Assembly: GCF_003856835.1 (NCBI RefSeq)
Contig: NZ_CP034145.1
Coordinates: 2,914,001-2,978,000 of the forward strand
Direction of reading: 5' to 3'
Source of the DNA: Haloplanus aerogenes
GTDB lineage: Archaea > Halobacteriota > Halobacteria > Halobacteriales > Haloferacaceae
Length of the DNA stretch: 64,000 nt
The position numbers were made by a program, and so were the translations under genes. Below, piece after piece: positions 49,012-58,670 of this stretch. The stretch's first letter is position 1. Each line of letters opens with the position of its first letter. The notes under the pieces were generated by a model. That model worked only from the letters and a program-made list of their open reading frames with translations. It did no database searches and was not told where the DNA came from.

Positions 49012-49632
49012 ATGCGTATTCTCGTTCCGTTCGAGGCGACACGGCCGAAAACCCGCCTCGACGGGGTGCTCGACACCGACGAACGCGTAGCGTTCGCGCA
49101 GGCGATGCTCCGTGACGTCCTCCGCGCCTGCCGTGACGCCGGCCACGACCCGGAAGTCGTCGCGACGGCGGAGGTAGACGTGAGCGCCCCAGTCGCCGTC
49201 GACGACCGCCCGCTCTCCGAGGCGGTGAACGCGCGGTTGGCGGCGACGGACGACCCACTCGGCATCGTCGTCGCGGACCTCGCGCTCCTGACGCCCGCCG
49301 CCGTCGACCGCCTCGTCGCCGCCGCGGCGGACGCCGACCTCGCCATCGCGCCGGGACGCGGTGGCGGGACGAACGGCCTCGTCGTCACCCACCCCGACTT
49401 CCGCGTCGACTTCCACGGCGTCTCCTTCCGGGATCACCTCGACGCGGCCGAAGCGGTCGGCGCGGACGTGACCGTCGTCGACTCGATGCGCCTCTCGACC
49501 GACGTGGACGAACCCGCGGATCTGGTCGAGGTGTTGCTCCACGGCGAGGGTGAGGCGGCGGCGTGGCTCCGCGCGGCCGGGTTCGAACTCGATCCCGTCG
49601 ACGGACGCGTCGGCATCAACCGTCGGGAGTGA
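49012..49632 (+). CDS. cofC: 2-phospho-L-lactate guanylyltransferase
   Basis: 206 residues. VPFEATRPKTRLDGVLDTDE at the N-terminus and GRGGGTNGLVV in the middle are the nucleotide-binding motifs of CofC, which activates 2-phospholactate (or PEP) with GTP for the F420 side chain. Five bp after the previous stop and 32 bp before cofG, so it is in the F420 cluster. Confidence 0.9.
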   Translation: MRILVPFEATRPKTRLDGVLDTDERVAFAQAMLRDVLRACRDAGHDPEVVATAEVDVSAPVAVDDRPLSEAVNARLAATDDPLGIVVADLALLTPAAVDRLVAAAADADLAIAPGRGGGTNGLVVTHPDFRVDFHGVSFRDHLDAAEAVGADVTVVDSMRLSTDVDEPADLVEVLLHGEGEAAAWLRAAGFELDPVDGRVGINRRE

Positions 49633-49664
49633 GGTTTTTGCCCGTCCGGCGACGAGCCGAGGGC

Positions 49665-50795
49665 ATGGTCCGGGCACCGGAAACCGACGACGAACGGGTC
49701 GCCCCCGAATCGCTCGTCGACGCCGCCGCAGTCGACGACTTGCTCGGGGTGACGCCCGCCGACGTCGAGGCGGCGCCCGAACTCACCTTCGCGCGCAACG
49801 TCTTCCTCCCGCTCACCACCGCCTGCCGGTACACCTGCACCTACTGCACCTTCTACGACGTACCCGGCGAGGCGACGCTGATGCCGCCCGAGGCGGTCCG
49901 CGAGCAACTGCGGATCGGCGCCGACGCCGGCTGTACCGAGGCGCTCTTTACCTTCGGCGACGCCCCCGACGAGCGGTACACGGCCGTCTACGACCAACTC
50001 GACGAGTGGGGCTACGACGACGTGCTCGACTACCTCTACGACGCCTGCGAGATGGCGCTCGACGAGGGGTTGCTCCCCCACAGCAACCCGGGCGACCTGC
50101 GGGAACGAGAGCTAGAACGCCTGGCCGAGGTGAACGCCAGCATGGGCGTCATGCTGGAGACGACGGCCGACGTGGACGCGCATTCGGGCGGCCGGCGGAA
50201 GACCCCCGAGCGCCGACTGGGGACGATTCGCGCGGCGGGCGAGGCGGGCGTCCCCTTCACGACCGGTATCCTCGTCGGTATCGACGAGACGCGGCGTGAC
50301 CGCGCGGAGAGCCTGCTGGCCATCCGCGAACTCCACGAGCGCTACGATCACGTGCAGGAGGTGATCGTCCAGAACGTCGTCCCGAACGAGCGCTCGGACT
50401 TCGAGCGGCCGAGCGTCGAGACGATGCGCGAGACGGTGGCGATGGCGCGGGCGGCGCTGCCTCCGGCGGTGTCGGTACAGGTGCCGCCGAACCTCTCGCC
50501 CACGCGCGAATTGCTGGACTGCGGCGTCGACGACCTGGGCGGCGTCTCGCCGGTGACGGACGACTACATCAACCCCGACTACGCGTGGCCGGCGCTGGAC
50601 GAACTGGAGCGCATCGCGAGCGAGGCGGGCGTTCCCCTCCGGGAGCGTCTGCCGACGCACGAGCGGTATCTCCCCGCCGAGTTCCGGCGGGGAAGCGTCG
50701 ATCCGGCGGCTGGAACGTGGCTGCGGCCGACGATTCGGGACGCACTCGACGCGGACGACGACGCCGGGCGGCGGTACCGGGCGCTGTTACAGTAA
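49665..50795 (+). CDS. cofG: FO synthase subunit CofG (radical SAM)
   Basis: 376 residues from the ATG at 49665. Radical-SAM cluster CRYTCTYCTF (CxxxCxxC), VMLETTADVDAHSGGRRKTP and PNERSDFERPSVE. With CofH it makes the deazaflavin FO, the chromophore of F420, from 5-amino-6-ribitylaminouracil and tyrosine. An upstream frame extension overlapping cofC is not family-like. Confidence 0.93.
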   Translation: MVRAPETDDERVAPESLVDAAAVDDLLGVTPADVEAAPELTFARNVFLPLTTACRYTCTYCTFYDVPGEATLMPPEAVREQLRIGADAGCTEALFTFGDAPDERYTAVYDQLDEWGYDDVLDYLYDACEMALDEGLLPHSNPGDLRERELERLAEVNASMGVMLETTADVDAHSGGRRKTPERRLGTIRAAGEAGVPFTTGILVGIDETRRDRAESLLAIRELHERYDHVQEVIVQNVVPNERSDFERPSVETMRETVAMARAALPPAVSVQVPPNLSPTRELLDCGVDDLGGVSPVTDDYINPDYAWPALDELERIASEAGVPLRERLPTHERYLPAEFRRGSVDPAAGTWLRPTIRDALDADDDAGRRYRALLQ

Positions 50796-51351: not shown

Positions 51352-52728
51352 TCAATCGTCCGCGAGAGACGGTGTGCGGTCGAGTATCGGCGTCCCGTCG
51401 GCCCGGGGACCGAGTCGCGGCCCGTGTGGAGCGTCGTCGGGATCGATGGGGTGCCGGCGTTCGTAATCGGTCGAGCGCTCGACCGGTCGCCGGCCGATGG
51501 CCGTCACCATGTCGACGTAGTCGGCGACCGACCGGAACTCGCCGTAGTCGCCGCCGGCGCGCTTGGTGATCTCTTCGGAGAGGAGCGTCCCCATGAAGTC
51601 GTTGGCGCCACAGGAGAGCGTCTTCAGCGACTTCTCGTCCCCGAACTTCACCCACGAGGTCTGGATGTTCTCGATGTTGTCGAGAAAGAGGCGGGAGACG
51701 GCGATCATGAGTTCGTCCTCGGCGTCGGTCGCGCCGCCCGAGACGAGTCCGCGGTCGTACAGCGGCGTCTGCTGGTGGATGAAGGAGAGCGGGACGAATT
51801 CGGTGATGCCGCCCGTGCGGTCCTGCAGGTCGCGCACCCGCTTCAGGTGCATGACGCGGTGCATCGCGTTCTCGACGTGACCGTACATGATGGTCGCGGT
51901 GACGGGGAGGCCGGCGGCCATCGCACCCTCCATGGCGTTCAGCCACGCCTCGGTGTCCATCTTCCCCGGACAGATCACCTCGCGCACCTCGTCGACGAGA
52001 ATCTCCGCGGCGGTGCCGGGGGCGCTGTCGAGGCCCGCCTCGCGCAGGCGGCGATACACCGCCTCGTAGGACCAGTCGGTGCCGCGGCGGGCGTGGTAGG
52101 CCTCCTCCGGCGTCATGGAGTGAACGTGGACGCCGTCGACGGACATGGCGCGAATCTGGTCGACGTAGGTGCCCGGCGAAGTGGTGTAGGTGTCGGGTGG
52201 GCGGTAGTTCACTTGCTCCGGCGCGGGGTGGGATTCGAGCACTTCGCGATGCTCGTCGTCGAGGGCGAACGCGGGGTGGAGGCCGCTGACCGAACAGACC
52301 TCGGAGATGCCCAGTTCGACCGCGTCGGCGACCGCCTGCCGCGACTCCGCCGGCGTCTTGGTGAACCCGCCGTGGTCGTCCGGTGCGTCGGCTTCGAACT
52401 TCGACGCGCGATCCTTGAAGTTACAGAAGAGACAGCCGGTGTCGCAGGCCGTCGTGACGTTGTTGTTGAGGTTGGCGACGAAGGTCACGTCGTCGCCGAC
52501 CATCTCGGCCCGGCGGTGATCGGCCGCCTCTAGCACTCGCTCTTTCCGGACCGGGTCGATGCCCGCCCGGTCCGTGCCGGTCGTCAGGAGTTCGACCCCG
52601 TCGTCCACGGTGAGGCGACAGCCGTCCCGGGCCTTGGCCAGTGCGTTCTCGAACGACTGGTCGGTCCGGGGGACGTGCTCGAAGTCGAAATCGGGGGCCG
52701 CGGCCGACACGTCGGGCGCGTCGCTCAT
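51352..52728 (-). CDS. cofH: FO synthase subunit CofH (radical SAM)
   Basis: 458 residues from the ATG at 52728; a GTG two codons upstream is possible. The cluster motif is CDTGCLFCNF (CxxxCxxC), preceded by NLNNNVTTACDTG; later parts include GISEVCSVSGLHPAF, PGTAAEILVDEVRE and KTLSCGANDFMGTLLSEEIT. Its N-terminal substrate-binding part (DDGVELLTTGTDRAG) fits CofH/MqnC. Works with CofG, which is convergent in the opposite direction with the hydrolase gene between. Confidence 0.93.
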   Translation of the reverse strand: MSDAPDVSAAAPDFDFEHVPRTDQSFENALAKARDGCRLTVDDGVELLTTGTDRAGIDPVRKERVLEAADHRRAEMVGDDVTFVANLNNNVTTACDTGCLFCNFKDRASKFEADAPDDHGGFTKTPAESRQAVADAVELGISEVCSVSGLHPAFALDDEHREVLESHPAPEQVNYRPPDTYTTSPGTYVDQIRAMSVDGVHVHSMTPEEAYHARRGTDWSYEAVYRRLREAGLDSAPGTAAEILVDEVREVICPGKMDTEAWLNAMEGAMAAGLPVTATIMYGHVENAMHRVMHLKRVRDLQDRTGGITEFVPLSFIHQQTPLYDRGLVSGGATDAEDELMIAVSRLFLDNIENIQTSWVKFGDEKSLKTLSCGANDFMGTLLSEEITKRAGGDYGEFRSVADYVDMVTAIGRRPVERSTDYERRHPIDPDDAPHGPRLGPRADGTPILDRTPSLADD

Positions 52729-52830
52729 CGTCACAGCCGAGGCGCCCGAGGCTAATAGGGGTTGTCGTCACCGACCTCGATCCCACCGCCTGTCAAAAGA
52801 CCCATACCACTTGCCATCGACGCCACGAGT

Positions 52831-53766
52831 ATGTACGCGCGGGTTCGTCGGTTGGCCGAAGGCGCTTACGAGCGTCTGCTCCGCCGCGACATCGATGGAA
52901 CGCCAGATCACGTCGCCATCATTCAGGACGGCAACCGGCGATACGCCCGCGAGCACGGTTCGGGGGCCGCGGACGGCCACCGCGAAGGGGCCCAGACGAC
53001 CGAACAGGTGCTCCGGTGGTGTCAGGACCTCGGCGTCGAGGAACTCACGCTCTATGCCTTCTCGACCGAGAACTTCGAGCGCCCGCCCGAGGAGCGCGAA
53101 CACCTGTTCGACCTGATCGAGGGGAAACTGCGGGAGTTCGCCGACAAGGAACAGGTCCACGAGAACGAGGTGTGCATCCGGGCGCTCGGCGAGGTGGACC
53201 GCCTCCCCGAACGCGTCCGCGACGCCGTCGCCTACGCCGAGGAACGCACCGAGGGGTACGACCGCTTCCGGTTGAACGTCGCGCTGGCGTACGGGGGCCG
53301 GGCGGAACTCCTCGGCGCCGCCCGCGACACCCTCGGCGCCGTCGCGGCGGGCGACCTCGATCCCGCGGACGTGACGGTCGAGGAGATCGACCGCCGCCTC
53401 TACGCTCGACCCGTCCGCGACGTGGATCTGATCGTTCGCACCGGCGGCGACGAGCGGACGAGCAACTTCCTGCCGTGGCACGCCAACGGCAACGAGGCCG
53501 CCGTCTTCTTCTGTGCGCCCTACTGGCCCGAGTTCTCGAAGATCGACTTCCTGCGGGCGATCCGCACCTACGAGTCCCGCGAGGCGTCGTGGCGACACAC
53601 CCGGCGGGAACGGGCCGTGGCGCTGGTCCGAGCCGTGGCGGGGGAGTCGCTGGTCGAGACGCGGGAAGTCGTCGGTCGCCTGCGCGAGCAACTCCCCCAC
53701 GTCGGTTCGGAGGAACTGACCGACGAGTTGACGGCCGAACTCGACCGGGACGGGACGGCGGAGTAG
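52831..53766 (+). CDS. uppS1: cis-prenyltransferase, catalytic-type subunit (UppS1)
   Basis: 311 residues from the ATG at 52831. Cis-isoprenyl diphosphate synthase fold: HVAIIQDGNRRYAREHG with catalytic Asp at about 33, LTLYAFSTENFERPPEE, DLIVRTGGDERTSNFLPW and YWPEFSKIDFLRAIRTY. In bacterial single-chain enzymes an RxG motif follows the last segment; here the corresponding region reads SREASWRHTR and continues for another ~60 residues (hydrophilic, Arg/Glu-rich). So the catalytic residues are present but RxG is missing, as in eukaryotic DHDDS. It should make the long polyprenyl (dolichyl-type) lipid that carries glycans. Confidence 0.9.
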   Translation: MYARVRRLAEGAYERLLRRDIDGTPDHVAIIQDGNRRYAREHGSGAADGHREGAQTTEQVLRWCQDLGVEELTLYAFSTENFERPPEEREHLFDLIEGKLREFADKEQVHENEVCIRALGEVDRLPERVRDAVAYAEERTEGYDRFRLNVALAYGGRAELLGAARDTLGAVAAGDLDPADVTVEEIDRRLYARPVRDVDLIVRTGGDERTSNFLPWHANGNEAAVFFCAPYWPEFSKIDFLRAIRTYESREASWRHTRRERAVALVRAVAGESLVETREVVGRLREQLPHVGSEELTDELTAELDRDGTAE

Positions 53767-53817
53767 CGTCGAAGATCCGGCGAGAACCTTTGTACCGTCC
53801 CGCCGTGAGCCACGGGT

Positions 53818-54720
53818 ATGGACTGGCTCGCGTTGCAGACGGCGACGCCCACGCCGTCGCCACCGGTCGGCCCCGAAGGCCTCACCGACTACTGGCCGAT
53901 CATCCTGCGCGGGGCGTGGTTCGTCGCCGGCTTCGTCGCCGTCGTCTTCCTCGGCTGGTTCGTCGTGGAACCACTCGTCGCGCGGTACGTCCGCCAGCGC
54001 AACCGCAACAACCCGACGATACAGGAAGCCGTCGCGCGGTACGTCCGCCTGCTCGTTATCGTGGTCGCCTTCTTCGTCGCCGCGGGCACGGCGGGGTACG
54101 GCGACCTGATCGGTGACTCGGCGCTCGTCATCGCCGCGGGGACGCTCGCTATCGGCGTCGCCGGCCAGACGGTCATCGGCTCCATCGTCAGTGGACTCGT
54201 CCTCGTCTTCGACCCCGAGTTCAACGTCGGCAACTACATCGAGTGGGCGGACAGGAGTGGAACCGTCCAGTCCATCACGCTCCGGGTGACGCGCGTCCTC
54301 ACCCCCGACGGCGAACTCGTCACGGTGCCGAACACGCTCCTCACGGGGCAGGCCATCACGCGCCCGTACGGCCGGGGGCGTCGGCGCGTCGTCGAACACG
54401 TCGGCATCGCGTACGAGGCGGACGTGAGCGAGGCACTCGATCACCTCGCCGCGGCCACCGACGCCGTCGACGACATCGTCGCGGAGCCGACGCCGAAGGC
54501 GTACGTCGACGACTTCGGTGGCGACGCCGTCGTCTGTCGCGTCCACTACTGGATCGAGGACCCGCGCCGACACGACATCTTCGGCATCCGGTCGGCGTAC
54601 GCCCGCGCGGTCAAGCGTCGCCTCGACGACGCGGGCATCGCGATCAGTCCGGCGTCGAAGCGGGAACTGCAGGGACGGATCGAGGTCGACGAGGAGAGCG
54701 ACCGGCGCGGCGTGGCGTAG
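53818..54720 (+). CDS. MscS-family mechanosensitive channel
   Basis: 300 residues. Three membrane helices (FVAGFVAVVFLGWFVVEPLV; LLVIVVAFFVAAGTAGYG; ALVIAAGTLAIGVAGQTVIG, the pore-lining Gly/Ala helix), then the beta domain (FDPEFNVGNYIEWADRSGTV ... PNTLLTGQAITRPYG) and C-terminal domain. Opens under membrane tension to release solutes upon osmotic down-shock, an evident need for a halophile. Confidence 0.92.
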   Translation: MDWLALQTATPTPSPPVGPEGLTDYWPIILRGAWFVAGFVAVVFLGWFVVEPLVARYVRQRNRNNPTIQEAVARYVRLLVIVVAFFVAAGTAGYGDLIGDSALVIAAGTLAIGVAGQTVIGSIVSGLVLVFDPEFNVGNYIEWADRSGTVQSITLRVTRVLTPDGELVTVPNTLLTGQAITRPYGRGRRRVVEHVGIAYEADVSEALDHLAAATDAVDDIVAEPTPKAYVDDFGGDAVVCRVHYWIEDPRRHDIFGIRSAYARAVKRRLDDAGIAISPASKRELQGRIEVDEESDRRGVA

Positions 54721-54721
54721 C

Positions 54722-55660
54722 TCAGCCGTCCGGACCCTTCGCCTGCCGCCATCCGACGCGACGCAGTCGGGCGTTCACGGCGCGTTCGACCGCCGGCGAC
54801 GCGAGACCGACGCTCGCGAGAATGGCTGCGCCACCGAGGGCGATGGCGGGCGTGAACGGTTCGCCGAGGAGAAGGACGCCGAGGACGACCGTCGTCAGCG
54901 GTTCGCTCGTGCTGACGATGCTGGCCGTACTCGCCGGGATGCGCGCCAGTCCGGCGGTGAAGAGGATCATCGGCAGGAGCGTCCCGACGACGGTGATACC
55001 GGCGATCAGGCGCCAGTGCGCCGGCGTCGCCGGCGCCGAGAGCGTCCCTGTCCCGACGCCGTACAGCAGGACGGCGGCCGTCACGCCGAGGAAGACGTAC
55101 GCCGCGTGCGTCAGCGGGGGAATCGTCTCGACCATGACCCGCGATCCGGTGGAGTACGCCGTGTAGGCCAGCGAGGCGAGACCGACGAGGACGAGTCCCG
55201 GCAGGCCGACGGCCGACCCACCGCCGGCGACGAGGGCGACGCCGCCGAGCGCGGCGATCAGGGCGAGCGCCTTCGGGACCGTGATCGGTTCGTCGAGCGC
55301 GACCGCCGAGACGAGCGTCACCTGCACCGGGTAAGTAAAGAGGACCAGCGTCGCGACGCCTGCCGAGAGCCACGCCAGACTCTCGAAGTAGGCGATGGCC
55401 ATGAACCCGTACACCAGTCCGAGCGCGAGTTCGACGGCCAGCGTCCGGCCACGGAGGCGAACGGGCGTCCCACGTCGGAGGAGATACGCCCAGAGGATCG
55501 CCGTCGCGGCGACGAAGCGAGCGGCGAGAAGGGTCGCCGTCGGCAGATTCGCGCTCCGAGCGAGTTCGCCGAAGATGCCGAGCGTGCCGAAGAGGGCCGC
55601 GCCAGCAACGACGAGGGCGACGCCGGTTCCGTCGCCCATCCCCACTCTATCGGCGTCCAT
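54722..55660 (-). CDS. EamA/DMT-family transporter
   Basis: 312 residues, about ten membrane helices in two EamA repeats (LVVAGAALFGTLGIFGELAR ... YFESLAWLSAGVATLVLFTY; SLAYTAYSTGSRVMVETIPP ... VSTSEPLTTVVLGVLLLGEP). The signature GVALVVAGAALFGT and late GEPFTP motif are typical of DMT exporters. Substrate unknown. Tail-to-tail with mscS, 1 bp apart. Confidence 0.85.
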   Translation of the reverse strand: MDADRVGMGDGTGVALVVAGAALFGTLGIFGELARSANLPTATLLAARFVAATAILWAYLLRRGTPVRLRGRTLAVELALGLVYGFMAIAYFESLAWLSAGVATLVLFTYPVQVTLVSAVALDEPITVPKALALIAALGGVALVAGGGSAVGLPGLVLVGLASLAYTAYSTGSRVMVETIPPLTHAAYVFLGVTAAVLLYGVGTGTLSAPATPAHWRLIAGITVVGTLLPMILFTAGLARIPASTASIVSTSEPLTTVVLGVLLLGEPFTPAIALGGAAILASVGLASPAVERAVNARLRRVGWRQAKGPDG

Positions 55661-55824
55661 ACCGTCTCCAGCGCCTCACGAAACAACTACCTGCCGGATA
55701 TGAGGATGACCCGTTTAAGTAGGCGACGGTACCGACCCCGTCGACGTTCAATTCGGCTAAACTCGGATTCATTCGTCCCGAACCGTCGACCCGGTTTATC
55801 ATCGTGGGGTCACAGGCCCCGAAT

Positions 55825-56508
55825 ATGGGAGACGGTGATGTCGATCAGCCGACAGCGTCGCGACGTGACTACCTCCGGGCGGCCGGCGGCCTCGCCGCCG
55901 CGGGTGTCGCCGGACTGGCCGGGTGTATGGGCGGTGCCGAGGCAACGACCGGGACGCTCGCGACCCAAGTGAGCGACCAACCCGGCGCCATCTCCGACTT
56001 CGAAACCTGTGTCGTCACCATCGCGGGTATCTGGGTGAAGCCGGGGACGGAGGACGAGGAGTCGACGGCGACGGCTACTTCAACGGCGACGAGTACCGAG
56101 TCGGACGGCGAAGCCGACGAGGACGATGCCCGCGAATACTACGAGTTCGACGAGCCACAGGAAGCGGATCTGGTAAAGCTACAGGGCGACCGGACGGCGC
56201 TCGTCGACGAACAGGAACTGGAGACCGGCCAGTACGCGTTCCTCCAACTCGACGTGACGGGCGTCGACGCCACGCTCGCGGACGGCGGCGAGGCGACGGT
56301 GGAGACGCCCGGGAATGCGCCGCTCAAGTTCAACCAGTCCTTCGAGATTCGGGCGGACACGCGGACGACGTTCACGGCCGACTTCACGCCGGTTCGACGG
56401 GGACGGAGCGGCTCGTACCTCCTCCAGCCAGTCGCCAGCGAGACGAGCGTGAGCTACGAATCGGCCGAGTCGACGGTGACGGGAACGGCGACGGAAACGA
56501 GCGGGTGA
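55825..56508 (+). CDS. DUF4382 Tat lipoprotein
   Basis: 227 residues from the ATG at 55825. RR motif (SRRDYLRAAGG) with lipobox GLAGC (Cys 34), then the DUF4382 domain: TLATQVSDQPGAISDFETCV opens it and GQYAFLQLDVTG/ NAPLKFNQSFEI-type strands follow, interrupted by an acidic low-complexity loop (TATATSTATSTESDGEADED) at about 75-100. Surface protein of unknown role. Confidence 0.8.
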   Translation: MGDGDVDQPTASRRDYLRAAGGLAAAGVAGLAGCMGGAEATTGTLATQVSDQPGAISDFETCVVTIAGIWVKPGTEDEESTATATSTATSTESDGEADEDDAREYYEFDEPQEADLVKLQGDRTALVDEQELETGQYAFLQLDVTGVDATLADGGEATVETPGNAPLKFNQSFEIRADTRTTFTADFTPVRRGRSGSYLLQPVASETSVSYESAESTVTGTATETSG

Positions 56509-56525
56509 GGGTGGGAGTCGGTAGG

Positions 56526-56552
56526 CCGACGTACTTCGGTCTATCGGCCGAA
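56526..56552 (+). repeat. 27-bp direct repeat, copy 1
   Basis: Begins CCGACGTACTTCGG and ends CTATCGGCCGAA. Copy 2 is at 56634-56660 and differs at one base. Each copy contains near-inverted arms TTCGG.. and ..CGGCCGAA able to form a short stem. Confidence 0.8.
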
Positions 56553-56587
56553 TTTCCGCGGGACTCGCTGGCGCTCGCCCCGCGACA

Positions 56588-56619
56588 TTTGGACGCTTCG
56601 CTGCCACTCAGCGTCCAAA
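56588..56619. terminator. hairpin between convergent genes
   Basis: Perfect 10-bp arms 56588-56597 and 56610-56619 (TTTGGACGCT and complement) with a 12-nt loop, centred between the convergent DUF4382 and uppS2 genes. Probably part of a bidirectional terminator. Confidence 0.6.
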
Positions 56620-56633
56620 CTACCGTCGGCAAA

Positions 56634-56660
56634 CCGACGTACTTCGGCCTATCGGCCGAA
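56634..56660 (+). repeat. 27-bp direct repeat, copy 2 (overlaps the uppS2 stop)
   Basis: Same block as at 56526-56552, 108 bp further on, with a perfect TTCGGCC-TATC-GGCCGAA hairpin. It covers the uppS2 stop codon at 56649-56651 and its last codons, so it sets the C-terminus of that protein. Confidence 0.8.
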
Positions 56661-57257
56661 CCGCCGCTGCCGATTCTGGTAGTCCAACACGGCACGGAGG
56701 TAGTCCCGCTTGCGCACGTCCCGCCAGTTCACGTCGGTGAAGTAGAGTTCGGAGTAGACGGACTGCCAGATCATGAAATCGGAGAGGCGTTCGGCGCCGG
56801 TCTTGATGAGCAGGTCGGGTTCGTCCGGGAAGACGAGGCGACGCTCCACGTCAGCCTCGTCCACGTCGGCGGGGTCGAGGTCGCCGGCGTCGACCTCCTC
56901 CGCCAGCGAGCGGACGGCGGCCGCGAACTCACCCTTGCCGCCGAGGCCGACGTTCACCTGCACGGGCGCCGAGACGGGGTCGGTGTCGTCGGGGGCGCGG
57001 ACGGCGACCTGTCGAGGGGCGTCGATAGCCCGGAGTTCGCGATCCAGCGTCGGGACGACGGCCTCGTCGAGGACGCTCACCGAGACGGTGGCGCGCTCGG
57101 CGCCGTAGTCGAAGACCCAGCGGAGGACGCGTTCGAGGCGGTTGTACGCCCCCTGTTCCAGCAGGTCACGCTCGGTGAGGACGAGCGCGACGTGTGCGGG
57201 GGGATCGCCGGGATGGACGCGCTGTTTGAGCGCGAGGTATCGGTCGTACAGGCCCAC
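56649..57257 (-). CDS. cis-prenyltransferase homologue without catalytic loop (UppS2, NgBR-like)
   Basis: 202 residues, GTG start at 57257, shorter than normal UppS (~250). The C-terminal half is well kept: DLLIKTGAERLSDFMIWQSV, YSELYFTDVNWRDVRKRDYL, DYQNRQRRFGR, with an RxG motif (RFG 199-201). The N-terminal half lacks the DGNRRWA phosphate-binding loop: after HVALVL the sequence reads TERDLLEQGAY, so the catalytic Asp is gone. This mirrors eukaryotic NgBR/Nus1, the non-catalytic partner of DHDDS. It is therefore probably a subunit of UppS1 rather than an enzyme by itself. Divergent (100 bp) from a DUF92 gene. Confidence 0.85.
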   Translation of the reverse strand: MGLYDRYLALKQRVHPGDPPAHVALVLTERDLLEQGAYNRLERVLRWVFDYGAERATVSVSVLDEAVVPTLDRELRAIDAPRQVAVRAPDDTDPVSAPVQVNVGLGGKGEFAAAVRSLAEEVDAGDLDPADVDEADVERRLVFPDEPDLLIKTGAERLSDFMIWQSVYSELYFTDVNWRDVRKRDYLRAVLDYQNRQRRFGR

Positions 57258-57356: not shown

Positions 57357-58670
57357 GTGACGTCCACCCTTCGACGGGCCGGAGGGTTCGCAGCGGTCGG
57401 GACGCTCGCGCTCGCCGCCCCCGAACTCGGGACGGCGGCGGCCGCCCCCTTCGCCATCGTGGCGCTCCTCGCCGCGTTCGTCGTGGACGAGGGGCCGGTG
57501 TTCGAACTCTTCGCCCGGCCACAGGATCGGCGCGACGGCCGTCTCAACGGCCTCGCCGGCTTCGCGCTGGCCGCTACCGGTCTCGCTATCCTGTCGACGG
57601 CGCCGCGAGAGTCCATGCCGACGGCCGTCTTCGTCGCCGCCATCCTCGTCGTCGCCTACGGCAACGTGGGGGCACGCGCCGTCGAACAGTGGTGGACCGA
57701 TCCCGGCCGCGCCATCGCCGGCTTCAGCGTCGTGGCCTTCCTCGCCGCCGTCGCCGGCCAGCTCGTCGTCGGGTGGAATCTCGGGGGCGTTCCCGACCTC
57801 GCCGCCGTCGTCTTCCTCGCCGCCGCCGGGGCGCTGGTGGCGGCGCTCCTGCGGTCGATGCTCTACGAGCGCGACGACCCCATCGTGATGCTGTCGACCG
57901 GCCTCTTGCTGTGGCTGTTTCACGCCATCGGCGTCGAGTCGGGGCTCGTCGAAGTCAGCGTCGCCCTCACCGTGACCGTCGCCCTCGGCTACGTCTCCTA
58001 CCGGACGGGCACCGCGTCGGTACCGGGGATGGTGACGGGCGTCTTGCTGGGCCTCCTCACCATCGTCTTCGGCGGCGTCGGGTGGTTCGCCATCCTCATC
58101 GCCTTCTTCGCCATCGGCGGCCTCTCCGCGAAGTACAAGTACGCGGAGAAAGAGCGCCGCGGGGCCGCCGAGGACAACGAGGGGGCTCGGGGGAGCGGGA
58201 ACGTCCTCGGCAACGCCGCCGTCGCCCTCGTGGCCGTCATCGGCTTCGCCGCCAGTACGGGAATGCAGGTCGACAGCACCCTCTTTCGCTTCGCCTTCAC
58301 CGGATCGCTCGCCGCCGCGATGAGCGACACGCTCTCCAGCGAGATCGGCGTCCTCTTCGACGAGCCCCGACTCATCACGACGCTCGAACGCGTCGACCCC
58401 GGCACGGACGGCGGCATCACGTGGCAGGGCTACGTCGTCGGCGTCGTCGGCGCGGCCCTGGTTGCGGGCGTCGCCGTCGCCGTCTTCACGTTCGACGTTC
58501 CCGGCCTCGCTGCCCTGACCGTCGTCGTCGGCGGCGTCGCGGGCATGACCGTCGACAGCATCCTCGGGGCGACGCTCGAGGGCGGCCGCGTCGGTAATCA
58601 GACCGTCAACTTCCTCGGCACCCTCGCCGGCGCCGTCGTGAGCGCGGTGCTCGCCGTTGCCCTGCTGTGA
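57357..58670 (+). CDS. DUF92 membrane protein (VTE6/TMEM19-like)
   Basis: 437 residues from a GTG at 57357; ~12 membrane helices. The C-terminal ~230 residues hold DUF92 signatures: GNVLGNAAVALVAVIGFAAS, AAMSDTLSSEIGVLFDEPRL and VDPGTDGGITWQGYVVGVVG. The plant member VTE6 is a phytyl-phosphate kinase and the family is related to polyprenol kinases. The N-terminal ~200 residues (dolichol-kinase-like hydrophobic region) are extra. Being divergent from uppS2, it may phosphorylate polyprenols or recycle polyprenyl phosphate; this is inference. Stop codon overlaps the next start. Confidence 0.8.
   Translation: MTSTLRRAGGFAAVGTLALAAPELGTAAAAPFAIVALLAAFVVDEGPVFELFARPQDRRDGRLNGLAGFALAATGLAILSTAPRESMPTAVFVAAILVVAYGNVGARAVEQWWTDPGRAIAGFSVVAFLAAVAGQLVVGWNLGGVPDLAAVVFLAAAGALVAALLRSMLYERDDPIVMLSTGLLLWLFHAIGVESGLVEVSVALTVTVALGYVSYRTGTASVPGMVTGVLLGLLTIVFGGVGWFAILIAFFAIGGLSAKYKYAEKERRGAAEDNEGARGSGNVLGNAAVALVAVIGFAASTGMQVDSTLFRFAFTGSLAAAMSDTLSSEIGVLFDEPRLITTLERVDPGTDGGITWQGYVVGVVGAALVAGVAVAVFTFDVPGLAALTVVVGGVAGMTVDSILGATLEGGRVGNQTVNFLGTLAGAVVSAVLAVALL

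Follow-up and report, generated by a model that had tools for sequence, protein, structure and literature searches.

Homodimeric UppS and the DHDDS-NgBR complex both depend on a C-terminal RxG motif with which one chain completes the diphosphate-binding site in its partner. The bacterial homodimeric enzyme (E. coli UppS, PDB 1jp3) holds both the catalytic aspartate loop and RxG in one chain, whereas in the human enzyme (PDB 6w2l, 6z1n, 7pax) the catalytic subunit DHDDS lacks RxG and bears a C-terminal extension, and NgBR lacks the aspartate loop and has RxG at its end. A heteromeric cis-prenyltransferase of Archaeoglobus fulgidus was reportedly described in about 2022, in which both subunits are said to be needed and the resemblance to the human complex is said to be convergent. 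In Methanosarcina mazei, MM_0618/MM_1083 is reported as a heteromeric cis-prenyltransferase with C45-50 products (Emi et al. 2019, as cited in PMC8131916).

Here we describe two genes, uppS1 and uppS2, in a 64,000-nucleotide stretch of the Haloplanus aerogenes genome (contig NZ_CP034145.1, positions 2,914,001 to 2,978,000; hereafter the window, within which positions are given). We conclude from sequence comparisons that their products are very probably the two subunits, both obligate, of a single heteromeric cis-prenyltransferase, which would make the long polyprenyl diphosphate for an archaeal dolichyl-type carrier. Heteromeric enzymes of this type were already known from archaea: the M. mazei case (2019) is earlier, as reportedly is the A. 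fulgidus case. What the present analysis adds is that the pair is universal in haloarchaea, that its motifs are lost in a cleanly complementary way over the phylum, and that a DUF92 gene is linked to it.

Division of the active-site motifs between UppS1 and UppS2

The two genes and their motifs are as follows.

52831..53766, plus strand: uppS1, predicted catalytic (DHDDS-like) subunit of 311 amino acids, PF01255, with a C-terminal helical tail instead of RxG
52927..52941, plus strand: codons of the UppS1 catalytic P-loop D33-G-N-R-R37, with D33 equivalent to E. coli D26; 71/71 UppS1 share its D, N and R
53587..53595, plus strand: lost-RxG site of UppS1, S253-W-R255; the R242 column is Ser in 46/46 haloarchaeal UppS1
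56649..57257, minus strand: uppS2, predicted accessory (NgBR-like) subunit of 202 amino acids with a GTG start and a complete predicted cis-prenyltransferase fold
57159..57176, minus strand: codons of UppS2 T28-E-R-D-L-L33, replacing the catalytic DGNRR loop in the aligned columns
56655..56663, minus strand: codons of UppS2 R199-F-G201, the C-terminal RxG, which would complete the active site of UppS1; its R and G are both present in 85/85 UppS2

The open reading frame (ORF) of uppS1 contains HVAIIQDGNRR, and its product carries every catalytic residue (DGNRR plus R194, R200, S202 and E213 in E. coli numbering), with PF01255 covering its full length (E=5.7e-68) and human DHDDS as its top single-sequence match in the PDB (1.5e-45). 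Where E. coli UppS has R242-F243-G244, UppS1 has S253-W-R255, followed by a conserved helical tail of ~55 residues. The uppS2 ORF has LVLTERDLLEQ in place of the DGNRR loop and ends in RRFGR. The original prediction, made from the sequence alone, had described UppS1 as possessing the DGNRR loop without a C-terminal RxG, and both this description and the end points of the two ORFs proved correct. For UppS2 its motifs (TERDLLEQ and RRFGR) and coordinates also held, but it left the strand unstated: the gene lies on the minus strand, convergent with uppS1, and the plus-strand translation of 56649-57257 is not uppS2.

Both chains have the cis-prenyltransferase fold, with PF01255 found in both and structural matches of the predicted models reaching Z 27 for UppS1 and Z 13.8 for UppS2. 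The UppS1 model (predicted local distance difference test, pLDDT, 72.9) gave Z 24-27 against DHDDS and bacterial UppS. Although sequence profiles detected only the C-terminal half of UppS2 (PF01255, E=8.3e-25), its AlphaFold2 model (mean pLDDT 84.9) showed the whole fold, and residues 1-202 of this model fit human NgBR (Z 13.7, root-mean-square deviation 4.8, 179-180 residues aligned) about as well as bacterial UppS (Z 13.8, deviation 4.0, over the full length). The last five residues, including RxG, were of low confidence in this monomer model, which would fit a tail that becomes ordered only upon its partner. We considered that UppS2 might be a fragment or pseudogene, but the intact ORF, the complete predicted fold and a conservation slightly higher than that of UppS1 (mean distance 0.29 versus 0.34) rule this out. 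The annotation of UppS2 as a polyprenyl diphosphate synthase is probably misleading.

To score motif residues among relatives, we used columns aligned to E. coli UppS in 71 UppS1 sequences (46 haloarchaeal and 25 from other families of the phylum) and 85 UppS2 sequences (61 haloarchaeal and 24 other). In the 46 haloarchaeal UppS1 proteins, D26, N28, R30, S71, N74, R77, R194, R200, S202 and E213 were all invariant, while RxG was absent (0/46), with Ser in the R242 column every time. The catalytic Asp26, present in 46/46 of these proteins, occurred in 0/61 haloarchaeal UppS2, in which the D26 column is T (57), A (3) or S (1), N28 is R or Q, R30 is L in 61/61 and the R77 region is missing, yet R242 and G244 are retained in 61/61. 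The same division extends through the phylum: all 71 UppS1 have DGN and lack RxG where it would align (the tail of L157_U1 includes an R-x-G string by chance at a different position), and none of the 85 UppS2 has DGN while all 85 have RxG within the last six residues. Alignment placed a D in the D26 column of 2/24 UppS2 from other families, with DGN in 0/24. Thus, the prediction that each loss would be class-wide was confirmed and reaches the whole phylum, and the alternative that UppS2 proteins usually keep the catalytic aspartate was contradicted (DGN in 0/85). In contrast, bacteria and archaea outside the phylum carry the two motifs on a single chain (Asp in 23/23, R in 22/23 and G in 23/23 of the single-chain archaeal and bacterial sequences), and neither window protein is of the single-chain homodimeric UppS type (TIGR00055), as the two motifs occur together in neither. 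A chance or misread motif is ruled out, as the pattern is invariant in 156 sequences.

The invariance of RxG in a protein without the catalytic loop is best explained by its use in another chain. Since UppS1 has the site without the tail and UppS2 the tail without the site, completion in trans is the natural reading, and we consider it highly likely that the UppS2 RxG completes the UppS1 site. In the mechanism that we propose, UppS1 would bind the allylic primer and isopentenyl diphosphate and catalyze the reaction through its DGNRR loop (D33) together with R203, R209 and S211; UppS2 would be catalytically dead, and its R199-F-G201 would cross the dimer interface to complete the UppS1 diphosphate-binding site, as NgBR does for DHDDS or the second chain in homodimeric UppS. 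The resulting polyprenyl diphosphate would be the precursor of the archaeal dolichyl-type glycosyl carrier. The retention of all catalytic residues in UppS1, and the conserved helical tail at the position of its lost RxG, would also suit a UppS1 homodimer that is sufficient by itself, with the tail replacing RxG and UppS2 acting as a regulatory or chain-length-setting pseudoenzyme. We regard such a homodimer as improbable, because the UppS2 RxG, needless for a mere regulator, is invariant across the phylum (85/85), uppS1 and uppS2 always co-occur, Grabinska 2017 (by its title, as listed in PMC8131916) reports a critical role for RxG in NgBR, and PMC8131916 describes the Methanosarcina counterpart as a heteromer.

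Co-occurrence and gene order of uppS1 and uppS2

The 3.5-Mb Haloplanus aerogenes genome has only two PF01255 genes, those for UppS1 and UppS2, which rules out a third cis-prenyltransferase providing either function. PF01255 was found in 390/391 genomes of the class Halobacteria, with two matches in nearly all. UppS2 was present in 126/126 Halobacteria genomes tested, and, in a sample spanning the phylum Halobacteriota, UppS2-type matches occurred in 386/393 genomes. Every genome examined for both genes, the 126 Halobacteria included, had both uppS1 and uppS2.

The two genes are also linked. In 46 of the 61 Halobacteria regions uppS1 lies within ~10 kb of uppS2, and in all 46 the genes are convergent, with a gap of <300 bp in 26; convergent neighbours are also found in distant families of the phylum (loci L124, L137, L156, L157, L158 and L162). 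In the window, uppS1 (plus) and uppS2 (minus) converge but are not adjacent, with 2.9 kb and three genes between them.

53818..54720, plus strand: mscS-type channel gene, the first of the three
54722..55660, minus strand: eamA-type transporter gene
55804..56508, plus strand: DUF4382 protein gene

Since the uppS1-uppS2 gap is only 29 bp in a congeneric genome (G080, locus L063), the separation in the window is probably a later insertion or rearrangement. This separation by three unrelated genes, together with the opposite strands, which preclude co-transcription, could be taken to mean that UppS1 and UppS2 each form homo-oligomers of their own, do not associate and differ in their products, one being, for instance, a prenyltransferase and the other an unrelated protein that binds prenyl phosphate. 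Such an arrangement is very improbable, given that UppS2 lacks the catalytic loop and that tight convergent linkage is seen in most genomes, including the 29-bp case, and recurs in L124, L137, L157 and L162. Mirror-tree correlations were equal for UppS1-UppS2, UppS1-DUF92 and UppS2-DUF92 (0.73-0.76) and hence uninformative.

Several observations concern the surroundings of these genes. The intervening block (53767-56648; mscS, eamA, DUF4382) resembles its surroundings in guanine plus cytosine content. On the other side of uppS1 are two genes for F420 cofactor synthesis: cofH (51352-52734, minus strand), which adjoins uppS1 here and is adjacent in L063 too, and an ORF for a CofG-like radical S-adenosylmethionine protein (49563-50795, plus strand), seen by eye. 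In one genus (g2 genomes, among them L085 9178-9972 and L086 9371-10030), the N- and C-terminal halves of UppS2 are separated by a low-complexity insert whose length varies, and uppS2 is near neither uppS1 nor the DUF92 gene. A UppS1-type gene annotated uppS is carried on the Methanohalobium evestigatum plasmid pMETEV01 (NC_014254.1; L254 5968-6822), where it adjoins a gene of the TnpB family and no uppS2 is annotated alongside.

Relationship to the Methanosarcina pair and to DHDDS-NgBR

We compared the window pair with the reported M. mazei heteromer by way of a genome, G645, that has three cis-prenyltransferases. One of these is nearly identical to PDB 7vq9 and close to M. mazei MM_0014, and because of this near-identical MM_0014-type enzyme we take G645 to be a Methanosarcina. 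By elimination, the two remaining genes would correspond to the other M. mazei paralogues, MM_0618 and MM_1083. In the tree, haloarchaeal and G645 sequences formed a single UppS1 clade (100/99) and a single UppS2 clade (100/100). Thus, MM_0618/MM_1083 and the window pair appear alike in having orthologous subunits by the tree, in the motif split and in phylum; they differ in that uppS1 and uppS2 are apart in the Methanosarcina-like genome, while in haloarchaea they are usually convergent neighbours beside DUF92.

The directly observed motif content with its phylum-wide losses, fold, universal co-occurrence, conserved convergent linkage and orthology with the Methanosarcina pair support the original proposal of a heteromeric enzyme for a dolichyl-type lipid; from them we infer the physical complex, the completion of the site in trans, the product and its chain length. 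Three points weigh against this assignment: the G645 genes were matched to MM_0618/MM_1083 by elimination and not by the sequences of the named genes, a minority of genomes have uppS1 and uppS2 far apart, and we found no biochemical data on any haloarchaeal pair in the literature searched.

The resemblance to the human enzyme covers both subunits. UppS1, like DHDDS, combines the absence of RxG with a C-terminal extension, and its profile alignment runs into the extension of DHDDS, where similarity is weak; UppS2, like NgBR, lacks the aspartate loop, ends in RxG and aligns with it over its whole length. The bacterial homodimer shares fold and catalytic residues with the pair but has both motifs in one chain. 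The contrast originally drawn between a bacterial enzyme with both parts in one protein and a DHDDS/NgBR-like split was borne out, in that the aligned motifs show the same division of labor. By analogy, the haloarchaeal pair most likely works as DHDDS-NgBR does.

The profile scores lean away from a common origin with DHDDS/NgBR, and the nearest prokaryotic relatives of DHDDS that we found are single-chain archaeal enzymes. DHDDS scored highest with the profile of single-chain archaeal enzymes (277 bits), above those of bacterial enzymes (258) and UppS1 (240), and NgBR showed no special affinity for the UppS2 profile (32.5 bits, compared to 35.2 for single-chain archaeal enzymes, 31 for bacterial enzymes and 27 for UppS1). 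When 84,980 species genomes were scanned with human DHDDS, the best prokaryotic relatives were archaeal enzymes (Hadesarchaea, Bathyarchaeota, Thorarchaeota and others) with both motifs in one chain, and sequences with DGN but without RxG came from Halobacteriota-like lineages (Methanophagales, Methanosarcinales, Syntrophoarchaeum, Methanothrix) and one Nitrosotalea contig. The UppS1-type gene on that contig, labeled Candidatus Nitrosotalea (L208 2156-3160), lacks RxG and resembles those of Methanophagales; the contig is probably mis-binned. DHDDS fell outside the UppS1 clade in the tree, although a grouping of DHDDS with UppS1 was not rejected (approximately unbiased [AU] test, P = 0.276). 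NgBR fell inside UppS2 on an end branch of 5.7, likely a long-branch effect in a sequence too divergent to place, and the AU test of UppS1 and UppS2 as sisters by duplication gave P = 0.274. On the profile scores, we lean toward Halobacteriota and eukaryotes having split the enzyme independently, so that the eukaryotic division probably has its own origin, although the tree tests do not decide between this and a shared one.

The DUF92 gene beside uppS2

Next to uppS2 is a further gene that recurs with it.

57357..58670, plus strand: DUF92/TIGR00297 integral membrane protein, candidate prenyl-lipid kinase, divergent from uppS2; GTG start likely

This gene starts ~100 bp from uppS2, head-to-head. 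Its product matches PF01940 (E=2.2e-54), scores 158 bits against TIGR00297, under the curated cut-off of 206 bits, and shows no weak match to a CTP (cytidine triphosphate)-transferase family. The head-to-head arrangement is found in 52/61 Halobacteria regions and in 12/19 regions of other families (L124-L129, L131, L134, L136, L137, L140 and L142). Outside Halobacteria, DUF92 is the sole recurrent neighbor of uppS2, the next best occurring in 6/19. We set dnaG aside as a functional neighbor: similarities to it appear in ~44/61 Halobacteria regions but in only 1/19 outside, indicating local gene order. No DUF92 match was found near the 80 loci retrieved with DHDDS, many of which are short.

In plants and cyanobacteria, DUF92 proteins (VTE6) act as phytyl-phosphate kinases. 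Our guess is that the DUF92 neighbor is a prenyl-lipid kinase or has a related role. Recognizable dolichol kinases are absent from most archaea, and a 2016 survey called the later archaeal dolichyl phosphate (Dol-P) steps uncharacterized (PMC5088576). It is possible, if rather doubtful, that uppS1, uppS2 and DUF92 form a conserved Halobacteriota lipid-carrier module, in which DUF92 would be the missing kinase or prenyl-phosphate-handling enzyme of the dolichyl-phosphate pathway, working with, and perhaps docked on, the UppS2 side.

These results settle the genomic side of the question for haloarchaea: two genes serve the dolichyl-type carrier of N-glycosylation, and neither product is expected to function alone. 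The split is a trait of the whole phylum and not a curiosity of one methanogen, and it illustrates clearly how two halves of one active site can be lost in complementary fashion, in parallel with human DHDDS-NgBR, which is mutated in disease. Through its linkage to uppS2 across the phylum, DUF92 becomes a concrete candidate for the archaeal Dol-P steps described as uncharacterized in 2016 (PMC5088576).

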